64,000 nt of DNA from Erysipelatoclostridium sp. An173 (GTDB taxonomy: Bacteria; Bacillota_I; Bacilli_A; Erysipelotrichales; Coprobacillaceae), in the NCBI RefSeq assembly GCF_002160495.1, contig NZ_NFKR01000015.1, forward strand, positions 1 to 64,000, in the 5' to 3' direction. The notes under the pieces are model-generated. The model did not search any database and was not told where the DNA came from. It saw only the letters and a program-made list of their open reading frames with translations. Position numbers and translations under genes: made by a program. This document shows, in pieces, positions 35,534 through 38,665 of this stretch (its first letter is position 1; each line of letters starts with the position of its first letter).

Positions 35534-35552
35534 AAGGTCGAAATTTCGACCT
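35534..35552 (-). terminator. Terminator of the corA-like gene
   Basis: AGGTCGAAATTTCGACCT is a perfect palindrome followed on the minus strand by TTTTTTTATT; it begins at the stop codon. Confidence 0.8.
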
Positions 35553-36492
35553 AATGAAACATATCTTTTTTAATAAAGATGATTGTAGCAATTACACAAG
35601 CAATTATAGCTAATAAAGTTGGAAACCACCACACAGGTACTGGTAATCCAGTAACATTCATACCATAAAAACTAAAAATGATATTTGGGATGGACATCAC
35701 AATTGTAATTACTGTCAATATCTTCATTACAATATTTAAGTTATTAGAAATAACAGAAGCAAAGGCATCCATTGTACCTGATAAAATATTAGAATAAATA
35801 TTACACATTTCAATAGCCTGATGAATTTCAATCATAACGTCATCTAATAATTCTTGATCTTCATCATATAATTTAATTGGTTTGCCACGCATAATTTTAT
35901 TTAAAGTAATTTCATCAGTTTTTAATGAAGTTGAAAAGTAAACTAACGATTTTTCTAAACCTAACATCTGAATTAATTCTTTGTTTTGCATTGATTTATG
36001 CAGACGATGTTCAGTTCTTGAAGATAAACGATCAATTTGTCGTAAATAAATCAAATAACGTTGTGAGATTCTAAGTAACAATAATAATAAAAATCTTGTT
36101 TTTAAATTAGTATCAATTCCTCTAACTTTACCTTTAGCCATATCATCAATATTGTAGTTTTCATACAATGAAATTGTAACAATATATCCTTTCATAATAA
36201 CGATCCCTAATGGCAAAGTAGTATACTGTAATGTATCGAAACCATCAGCTTTGTCTTCAGCACTTGGATAATCGACGATAACTAATGTTTGATTATTATC
36301 TTCATCATAGTCTAAGTGAGAACTTTCTTCTTCATCTAATGATGATTTTACAAATTCAGGAACTATACCCATTTCTTCAATCAAGAAATTTTTTTCTTCT
36401 TCAGTAGGACTAACAGCATTGATCCAGCAACCATATTCTGGCTGATCGATTTTTACGGTTTTGTTTTCAAAAGTTTTGTAGAATTCTAACAT
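35551..36492 (-). CDS. CorA-family divalent cation transporter
   Basis: 313 aa from ATG 36492 (AAGGAGG 5 bp upstream). Large cytoplasmic domain, a long helix, and two C-terminal membrane segments; the first ends in the signature YGMNV, which forms the selectivity filter for hydrated Mg2+ in CorA. The C-terminus is basic (KKDMFH). An in-frame ATG at 36519, also with a perfect GGAGG, would add nine residues. The family moves Mg2+, Co2+ or Ni2+; the leader peptide upstream argues for Mg2+ control. Confidence 0.92.
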   Translation of the reverse strand: MLEFYKTFENKTVKIDQPEYGCWINAVSPTEEEKNFLIEEMGIVPEFVKSSLDEEESSHLDYDEDNNQTLVIVDYPSAEDKADGFDTLQYTTLPLGIVIMKGYIVTISLYENYNIDDMAKGKVRGIDTNLKTRFLLLLLLRISQRYLIYLRQIDRLSSRTEHRLHKSMQNKELIQMLGLEKSLVYFSTSLKTDEITLNKIMRGKPIKLYDEDQELLDDVMIEIHQAIEMCNIYSNILSGTMDAFASVISNNLNIVMKILTVITIVMSIPNIIFSFYGMNVTGLPVPVWWFPTLLAIIACVIATIIFIKKDMFH

Positions 36493-36502
36493 AGTAACCT
36501 CC

Positions 36503-36532
36503 TTATTACAGGAGGTCATAATATGCCTCCTG
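36503..36532 (-). promoter_or_regulatory. Three-element Shine-Dalgarno switch in the corA leader
   Basis: In mRNA order: CAGGAGG (36532-36526), CCTCCTG (36515-36509) and the corA site GGAGG (about 36502-36498). The first two form a perfect 7-bp stem with a 10-base loop. The middle element also pairs with the third (ACCTCC with GGAGGT). The pairings exclude each other: the first frees the corA site and the second hides it. Confidence 0.6.
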
Positions 36533-36589
36533 CATTTTATTTATATTCAATTGTTGCATTTTTTCGAACGACTCGGGCTCGGGAGACAT
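36506..36589 (-). CDS. 27-aa leader peptide upstream of corA, MgtL-like start
   Basis: ATG 36589 with AAGGTG 6 bp upstream opens a 27-codon frame beginning M-S-P-E-P-E-S-F and ending in tandem stops (TAATAA) directly before the corA ribosome-binding site. The CCC and GAG codons are uncommon in this AT-rich window. The alternating Pro/acidic start resembles Salmonella MgtL (MEPDPTP), whose nascent chain destabilises ribosomes at low Mg2+. The frame runs through the hairpin elements described here and through the alternative corA start. Coding status is inferred from start, spacing and context. Confidence 0.55.
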   Translation of the reverse strand: MSPEPESFEKMQQLNINKMQEAYYDLL

Positions 36590-36606
36590 AATAACACCTT
36601 CTTTCG

Positions 36607-36622
36607 GTGAGTAATTATAACA
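36607..36622 (-). promoter_or_regulatory. Extended -10 promoter of the corA leader
   Basis: TG-T-TATAAT on the minus strand (TATAAT about 36613-36618) with no good -35. Transcription would begin about 17-20 bases before the leader-peptide ATG. Confidence 0.45.
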
Positions 36623-36708
36623 TAGATTGTTGAATTTTTCCTACTATTTGATGTAATAATATTGGAAAATTTTTAAATTTTTTAGTTAATAGCTATTTTA
36701 ATAATAAT

Positions 36709-36790: not shown

Positions 36791-38665
36791 ATGAATATTA
36801 CAGATTTATTGACTATAACTAGTATTGATTTAGATGCTAAAGTTTCATCAAAAGAAGAAGCAATCGATCATTTAGTCGATTTAATGATGACAACTGGTAA
36901 AATAAATAATCGCGAGTTATATCGAAAAGATATTTTTTCTCGTGAAAGTCAAGGATCAACAGGAGTAGGAGAGGGAATTGCAATTCCCCATGCTCAAAGT
37001 GAAGCCGTTGATGATTTTGCATTAGCAGCGATGGTTGTTAAAGATGGTGTTGATTTTGATGCTCTTGATAATCAAAAAGCAAAATTATTCTTTATGATTG
37101 CTGCAAGCAATGATGGTGGTAATGATCATTTAAAAGCATTAGCACGATTATCAAAGATGCTGATGGATCAAGATTTTAAAGAAAGTTTAATTATGGCATC
37201 TGATACTGCTGTTTTTTTAGATTTAATCGCTAAAAAAGAAAAGACATTAGATAAACCTGATTTAGAAAATAATGGTACTTATGATGTTTTAGCGGTGACT
37301 GCATGTCCAACAGGAATTGCTCATACGTACATGGCAGCAAAAAGTTTAGAAGAAAAAGCCCAGGAACTTGGTATAAAAATAAAAGTAGAAACTAATGGAG
37401 CTTCTGGTGTTGATAATCCATTAACTCATCAAGAAATTGCTGTGGCAAAATGTATTATAGTTGCTGTTGATAAACAGGTAGAAATGAGTCGATTTGATGG
37501 TAAACCGGTAATTATTACCCGCGTGGCTGATGGTATTAATAAACCAGAGGAACTGTTATTAAAAGCTACTAATGAAAATGTAGAAATTTATCATGACGGT
37601 GATGATTCAAAACGATTTAAACAATCACGTTTAAGAATTTTATATATGCAACTATGTGAGGCTCTTAATCGAATATTACCAATCTTAATTGGAGCTGGAG
37701 CTTTACTTTCAATACCTATTTTTATTCAGGAATATAATTTATTTAATATTAATACTATTTATGATAACCTTTTATTAACAAATAGTTATTTAGCGGGTCA
37801 TTTAATTCAAACAATTGTACCGATAATTTTTGCTGGCTATATCGGTCAGGCAGTCGCTAAACAGCCAGGATTCGCTGTTTCTTTAGCTGGTGGAATTGGT
37901 ATGATGATAACTGGCTTATATTATGATGGTACTAATGGCGCTGGTTTACTTGGTGGTATTATTGCTGGTTTTTTAGGTGGTTATATTGTATTAGGATTAC
38001 AAAAACTGTGGCAAAAGTTACCTGAAAGCTATCAGGGCTTATCAACAACTGTAATATATCCGATTTTTGGAGTTATTATTGCATTTATAATATCTTTAGT
38101 TATTAGTCCTTATATTGGGGCATTAAATCAAATTATTGCCGTATCACTTGATAGTATGAATTTAGTTGGAAAACTAATTGCAGGAATTATTTTAGGGGCT
38201 ATGATGGCAGTTGATATGGGTGGTCCAATTAATAAAATTGCCTATATATTTGCAATTAGTCAAATATTAGAAGGTAACTATTCATTGATGGCTGCGGTGA
38301 TGGCTGCAGGGATGGTACCGCCATTAGTTATTGCTTTAGCGACAACGTTTTTTAAAAATAAATTTACTGAAAATCAACATAAATTAGGTAGAAGTAATTA
38401 TTTAAAAGGATTAATGTTTATTTCGGAAGGGACACTTCCTTTTGTAAAAGAAGATCGTCGTTTGGTAACGGCTGTTTGTATGATTGCCTCAGCTTTAACT
38501 GGTGCTTTTTCGATGGTTTATAATTGTGGGATCAGTTTACCTCATGGTGGTATTTTTGTTTTACCATTAGTTATTCATCCATTAAGATATGTGGTAGCAA
38601 TACTAATTGGTAGTCTTTGTGGGGCAATGATTTATGGTATATTTAAAGAAAAGGATGATATGTGA
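36791..38665 (+). CDS. Fructose-family PTS transporter, EIIABC fusion
   Basis: 624 aa in order IIA-IIB-IIC. IIA (1-150) has the phosphorylated His in GIAIPHAQSEAV; IIB (about 163-260) has the Cys in VTACPTGIAHTYMAA; IIC (about 285-620) has eight to ten membrane helices with GGPINKIAY and SEGTLPF motifs. Takes up and phosphorylates fructose, mannitol-like or related sugars from PEP. Unlike typical fruA operons there is no fruK (1-phosphofructokinase) beside it; instead a HAD phosphatase overlaps its end, so the sugar phosphate may be dephosphorylated. Confidence 0.93.
   Translation: MNITDLLTITSIDLDAKVSSKEEAIDHLVDLMMTTGKINNRELYRKDIFSRESQGSTGVGEGIAIPHAQSEAVDDFALAAMVVKDGVDFDALDNQKAKLFFMIAASNDGGNDHLKALARLSKMLMDQDFKESLIMASDTAVFLDLIAKKEKTLDKPDLENNGTYDVLAVTACPTGIAHTYMAAKSLEEKAQELGIKIKVETNGASGVDNPLTHQEIAVAKCIIVAVDKQVEMSRFDGKPVIITRVADGINKPEELLLKATNENVEIYHDGDDSKRFKQSRLRILYMQLCEALNRILPILIGAGALLSIPIFIQEYNLFNINTIYDNLLLTNSYLAGHLIQTIVPIIFAGYIGQAVAKQPGFAVSLAGGIGMMITGLYYDGTNGAGLLGGIIAGFLGGYIVLGLQKLWQKLPESYQGLSTTVIYPIFGVIIAFIISLVISPYIGALNQIIAVSLDSMNLVGKLIAGIILGAMMAVDMGGPINKIAYIFAISQILEGNYSLMAAVMAAGMVPPLVIALATTFFKNKFTENQHKLGRSNYLKGLMFISEGTLPFVKEDRRLVTAVCMIASALTGAFSMVYNCGISLPHGGIFVLPLVIHPLRYVVAILIGSLCGAMIYGIFKEKDDM

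Follow-up and report, generated by a model that had tools for sequence, protein, structure and literature searches.

A probable leader-peptide attenuator with an early Pro-acidic-Pro motif upstream of corA in Bacillota

In ermC-type translational attenuators, the signal is an antibiotic-stalled ribosome and the gene controlled encodes a methyltransferase. In Bacillota, Mg2+ transporters are regulated by the M-box (ykoK, RF00380), which binds Mg2+ directly via a conserved aptamer. Mg2+ leaders comparable to the one described here have been found in enterobacteria, and an M-box uORF has also been reported from mycobacteria (PMC12810186). MgtL, the mgtA leader peptide of E. coli and Salmonella (MEPDP...), undergoes ribosome drop-off at EPDP in low Mg2+, with a toeprint or stall that has Pro3 in the P site (PMC11282234). 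Impaired elongation of this leader turns the transporter on, and MgtL acts via Rho-dependent transcription termination (PMC11282234, PMC11552253). In the same two organisms, the corA leader corL is a uORF whose translation is inversely related to corA; it works through Rho and has a conserved N-terminus with a single proline (PMC11552253). At Salmonella mgtB, mgtQ combines acidic codons with a scheme in which the pairings 1:2 and 3:4 alternate with 2:3 (PMC8092293). The gammaproteobacterial corA motif has been reported in Gammaproteobacteria only (PMC6429828).

The locus described here lies on the minus strand of a 64,000-nucleotide stretch of DNA from Erysipelatoclostridium sp. An173, the window (Table 1). 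An earlier note on this DNA had proposed a 27-codon leader frame directly before the gene for a CorA-type transporter, and both claims were confirmed. Direct reading of the minus strand placed the leader Shine-Dalgarno sequence AAGGTG at 36600-36595, the leader ATG at 36589, the end of a first TAA at 36506 with a second TAA adjoining it, then AAGGAGG at 36504-36498 and the corA ATG at 36492. The corA product matches the PF01544 profile with its GMN motif intact (YGMN), is related to solved CorA proteins and scores under the TIGR00383 equivalog cutoff. The window's genome contains a second CorA-family gene (L002), which is without a Pro-acidic-Pro leader. Inspection of the minus strand for a promoter revealed an extended -10 element with no good -35, from which the mRNA would start about 15-18 nt 5' of the leader ATG; a TATAAT-like box is found at comparable spacing upstream of most homologous leaders as well. 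A divergent PTS fructose-type transporter gene (window 36791-38665, plus strand) begins some 170 bases away from the promoter of the leader, so that a short intergenic region is common to this gene and to the leader-corA unit.

Table 1. Features of the corA leader locus, in window coordinates.
Feature	Positions	Strand	Sequence or description	Basis
Extended -10 promoter element	36614..36622	-	TGTTATAAT	sequence reading
Leader ribosome-binding site	36595..36605	-	GAAAGAAGGTG	nearly invariant in leader alignment
Leader peptide	36506..36589	-	MSPEPESFEKMQQLNINKMQEAYYDLL; starts MSPEPESF, 27 codons + TAA	frame and conserved residues 2-5
corA	35551..36492	-	CorA-type transporter, 313 aa, YGMN motif	PF01544, 165 bits
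Element A (1)	36582..36593	-	TATTATGTCTCC; leader start region, pairs with B	fold; swap z -7.4
Element B (2)	36519..36532	-	CAGGAGGCATATTA; partner of A or C	fold, covariation, RNAalifold
Element C (3)	36509..36518	-	TGACCTCCTG; anti-Shine-Dalgarno, partner of B or D	RNAalifold; swap z -7.3 (B:C), -6.2 (C:D)
Element D (4)	36495..36504	-	AAGGAGGTTA; corA ribosome-binding site, hidden in C:D	folds and accessibility model

The genome collection yielded 46 corA homologues, 29 of them with a leader; these 29, together with the window and the genus members L005 and L009, formed a set of 32 leaders. Residues 2-5 of the encoded peptides are Ser/Ala/Thr-Pro-Glu/Asp-Pro and are kept with synonymous codon changes, the proline codons showing all four third bases and the Glu and Asp codons both of theirs. 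Pro3 and Pro5 each occur in 30/32 leaders, an acidic residue 4 in 29/32, and PEP or PDP at residues 3-5 in 27/32, with Pro3-Glu4-Pro5 in the window. Beyond about residue 8, the peptide is unconserved, its length ranges from 12 to 31 residues, and the position of the stop codon drifts. This codon pattern shows that residues 3-5 of the leader frame (Pro-Glu/Asp-Pro) are under selection. The earlier note had staked its reading on a frame conserved in relatives, with a Pro/acidic start kept through synonymous changes, and the 32 homologous leaders display both. The window's leader has acidic codons near the start of a short ORF, as does mgtQ, and an early Pro/acidic motif at residues 2-5, as does MgtL. 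Leaders without the full motif also exist (SLDADGH, SPVPER, SPLPED, MSADGNG). Upstream of corA, L026 (MSLDADGH) and L032 (MSLDSDGH) have Asp-x-Asp in place of Pro-Glu-Pro, a change reminiscent of the D/E-x-D/E motif that has been reported for targets of EttA (PMC11282234).

Comparison of the homologous sequences shows that the mRNA has two alternative folds, either A:B with C:D, in which the corA site is hidden, or B:C, in which it is free. The A core ATGTCTCC, at the leader start codon (36589-36582), pairs with the B core GGAGGCAT (36530-36523), and the C core TGACCTCCT pairs with the D core AGGAGGTTA, which is the corA site; the alternative helix B:C (CAGGAGG/CCTCCTG) frees D. The earlier note had described a switch of three elements, CAGGAGG (36532-36526), CCTCCTG (36515-36509) and GGAGG (36502-36498). 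All three are present, and the pair of hairpins at the corA site, each excluding the other, stands, but the elements are four, the leader start region (A) having been missed. In the window's free RNA, A:B with C:D is the minimum-energy fold (energy z-score -3.0 versus shuffles), and the same holds for nearly all of the 32 leaders, with L026 as the clear exception. The covariation to which the earlier note had looked for support was found in all three helices. In swap tests on 22 representatives, which treat the sequences without regard to the tree, own and swapped partners gave -19.1 and -14.3 kcal/mol for A:B (z -7.4), -15.4 and -11.8 kcal/mol for B:C (z -7.3), and -12.8 and -10.4 kcal/mol for C:D (z -6.2), with 0/5000 shuffles in each case. 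RNAalifold recovered B:C independently, with two-sided changes at 5 of its 7 pairs. Noncoding bases 5' of the start codon covary with bases after B (fixed-register pairs, z -3.9), a covariation for which coding constraint is no explanation. The arrangement is that of mgtQ, where 1:2 with 3:4 excludes 2:3 and 3:4 hides the ribosome site of the transporter gene. No intrinsic terminator was found on the minus strand; the single terminator-like site is the palindromic B:C hairpin in its opposite reading, on the plus strand.

The effect of a ribosome on these folds was modelled in the 32 leaders. On average, the corA site was unpaired with a probability of 0.05 in free RNA; a ribosome placed on codons 1-9 raised this value to 0.40, masking of B brought it back to 0.04, and accessibility was highest with the early ribosome in 32/32 leaders. 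Spacer-shuffled controls gave a rise of 0.09 compared with 0.35 for the real leaders. A terminating ribosome reaches B in 32/32 leaders, although the stop codons are spread over 42 nt with respect to B. Taken together, the modelled accessibilities and the reach of the terminating ribosome indicate that the anatomy favours an ON state for early trouble and an OFF state for no translation or full translation. In the window's own RNA, the probability of an open site with a ribosome on codons 1-9 is 0.01 and the equilibrium fold is still C:D, so that its ON state would need a co-transcriptional folding order in which B:C forms before D is made; L030, L033 and L039 also remain closed with an early ribosome at equilibrium.

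The modelling supports the view that early ribosome trouble on the leader exposes the corA site, the sign of the regulation being that of the model. The proposal of the earlier note, that early drop-off exposes this site, agrees with the modelled direction, but drop-off alone suits the anatomy less well: the start codon sits in A:B, and complete drop-off without reloading would let the OFF fold return. A ribosome that pauses, or loads again and again, near codons 1-6 is the better match. In the mechanism that we propose, C:D would form and corA would be off both when no ribosome is on the leader and when ribosomes finish it and cover B. Ribosomes pausing or repeatedly aborting at codons 3-6 would cover A and not B, allowing B:C to form and corA to be translated. 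The cue may be low intracellular Mg2+, which would weaken ribosomes that carry the early Pro-acidic-Pro nascent chain, as for MgtL. On the sequence and modelling evidence, we regard a leader-peptide translational attenuator for corA, switched on by early ribosome trouble and presumably cued by low Mg2+, as the probable reading of this locus.

In many members, the window included, the stop codon falls within C:D or just ahead of it, where terminating ribosomes could melt this helix or reinitiate. This would suit plain translational coupling, in which C:D never melts unless the leader is translated, and good translation turns corA on with no specific sensor. We consider this explanation unlikely. 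Coupling requires neither B nor A:B, yet both covary; the leaders of L005 and L022 stop 43-46 nt before corA, ahead of B; and selection on Pro-acidic-Pro would be left unexplained.

The leader search pattern gave 35 matches in 316 genomes of the window's order and the reversed pattern gave none; of 30 matches examined in this order, 29 precede corA of the window's type. Within the window's family, the leader was found in 16/16 genomes with a close corA, and no model match was obtained in the three genomes that have only distant CorA proteins. The leader was absent from 17 of the 46 corA loci, namely those of Acholeplasmatales, Anaeroplasmataceae, Collinsella/Enorma, Limicola, Catenibacillus/Scybalocola, L055 and a few others. 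Upstream of corA in L050 (Acholeplasmatales), a possible leader, MDTYICNKNN, is without a Pro-acidic start, and its start region resembles the complement of a segment further on (GUGGUGCAUU / AAUGUGCCAC). A pattern match in L108 was rejected as a leader because of its unrelated location, and covariance-model matches in L075 and L076, before a small zinc-ribbon-like protein gene and at an alanine-racemase-like gene, were weak and chance-like.

One leader-bearing member of the 46-homologue set, L047, is Candidatus Pararuminococcus, of the class Clostridia. A similar CorA occurs in 88 of 295 genomes of its order, and 62 of the 69 corA upstream regions read there contain an M-x-[PAG]-[DE]-P type leader. 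More broadly, these leaders follow M-x-[PAGST]-[DE]-[PGA] or deviate slightly from it (MVPER, MDPYS), and they often continue x-[SG]-[RK], as in MSPDPGSRRQ, MKADPCGHSC and MNPDPLSRLN. An automatic count by motif only gave 54/69 corA upstreams, compared with 0.45 in shuffles and 0/406 natural control windows. These leaders were picked by motif, so that frequencies at residues 3-5 are conditional, and the acidic residue 4 in 50/53 of them arises partly through that selection; S/G at residue 7 and R at residue 8 were not part of it. The clostridial RNA sequences are wholly different from those of the window's group, yet the helices recur, with z -10.2 for start region with spacer and z -7.5 for spacer with corA site. 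Modelled corA-site accessibility rose from 0.22 to 0.43 with an early ribosome and showed no rise in shuffles. L192 is a clear four-element case (CGCCGUG / ACGGCGGA / UCCGCCGU / GGCGGA). These data bear on the reading that the RNA is a metal-binding riboswitch, or a set of chance hairpins, and the frame incidental. Strong RNA structure is indeed present, but third codon positions vary while Pro, Glu and Asp are kept, clostridial leaders have the same peptide start on RNAs of unrelated sequence, and no Rfam match was obtained; we judge this reading extremely improbable.

Two further kinds of corA leader were seen. In L256, L257, L258 and L260 (family f13, genus g55, same class), another conserved leader, MEDSIPIRTIK..., has acidic positions 2-3, and in L258 and L260 its start region pairs with the spacer; it is perhaps an independent version of the device. 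Upstream of corA in L238, a leader MPEDICRYYNKN... leads into a region with a hairpin and a T run; this may be a version that works by transcription attenuation.

Among 13 clostridial pattern matches, 11 were discarded for their unrelated locations, and two were genuine, the corA leader of L047 itself and one mgtE leader. The latter, MSPDPDSKPKG in genome G1098, has its own A:B and C:D helices and precedes the gene for a Mg2+ transporter unrelated to CorA; two of the closest orthologues of this mgtE (72-73% identity) carry an M-box. Other mgtE upstream regions (L219, L221, L222, L225, L228) contain leaders MVDPGPLPSLC or MALDSSPVPEW/MVLDSGPVPGQ, strikingly similar to the Pro/acidic start of MgtL, and in L219 the leader directly follows an M-box, placing both in series before mgtE. 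Neither an M-box nor any other known riboswitch was detected in the homologous leaders, in the window or in the genome to which it belongs; the RF00380 gathering score was not reached.

The analogy with known systems suggests Mg2+ as the cue, because CorA lies downstream, mgtE takes its place in G1098 with M-box-bearing orthologues, the residues match MgtL and the scheme matches mgtQ. Co2+ and Ni2+ are further possible substrates of CorA proteins. An attenuator answering another CorA substrate (Co2+, Ni2+, Zn2+) or general ribosome stress would accord with the score of the corA product under the TIGR00383 cutoff, but the mgtE case beside M-box-bearing orthologues and the MgtL precedent indicate Mg2+, and we hold such an alternative to be very improbable. 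The attenuator could instead sense translation capacity, through EF-P, an ABC-F factor such as YfmR, or charged tRNA-Pro. Asp-Pro stalls B. subtilis ribosomes lacking EF-P, which YfmR overexpression relieves (PMC11381351), and EttA acts on the EPDP of MgtL (PMC11282234). This explanation nevertheless appears improbable. What follows the leader is corA in nearly every case and mgtE in one; proline gives way to other residues in the ADP, GDP and DAD variants and in MSADGNG, whereas the acidic residue at position 4 is one of the most constant. tRNA-Pro starvation was for this reason judged an unlikely cue.

The working principle of the Mg2+-cued attenuator that we favour is mgtQ/ermC-like and its sensor motif MgtL-like; the gene, the phylum and the scale are new. 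With mgtQ, it shares a short ORF with an acidic start, a 3:4 helix hiding the ribosome site of a Mg2+ transporter gene and translational control, and with ermC-type attenuators the alternation of 1:2 and 3:4 with 2:3 and the exposure of the site by a ribosome held early on the leader. It differs from mgtQ, which encodes 8 aa (Asp2, Glu5; the Pro codon dispensable) within an operon, before a P-type ATPase gene, in a Gram-negative host, in the length of its peptide (12-31 aa), its 5'-leading position, its Pro-acidic-Pro motif and its location ahead of corA in Bacillota, and no sequence relation between the two was seen. Pro3-acidic4-Pro5 stands at identical residue positions in MgtL, which also has a Mg2+ transporter downstream and is likewise ON when leader elongation is impaired; corL resembles our leader in its position before corA and in the inverse relation of uORF translation to corA. 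In contrast to the Rho dependence of both, the modelling points to output through a hidden ribosome site instead of Rho termination. The leader is very short for homology, and convergence with enterobacterial MgtL is likelier than common descent. The M-box, which binds the ion itself, is found on close orthologues of the leader-bearing mgtE.

Neither the leader RNA nor the peptide matched an Rfam, Pfam or NCBIfam family, and no Bacillota corA leader was found in the literature searched, subscription journals and preprints lying outside the search. This literature describes Mg2+ sensing through destabilisation of the ribosome by its nascent chain only from enterobacteria. We lean slightly towards the view that Pro-acidic-Pro Mg2+ sensing is a general strategy by which Bacillota control Mg2+ transporters, one that probably evolved repeatedly; many Erysipelotrichia and Clostridia corA genes and some mgtE genes would then have M-x-[PA]-[DE]-P leaders and a four-element switch, in places replacing the role of the M-box. 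The leaders of gut Bacillota are a widespread, compact and testable case with over 80 natural variants, and they allow one to ask whether the ribosome serves as a Mg2+ gauge outside Proteobacteria.
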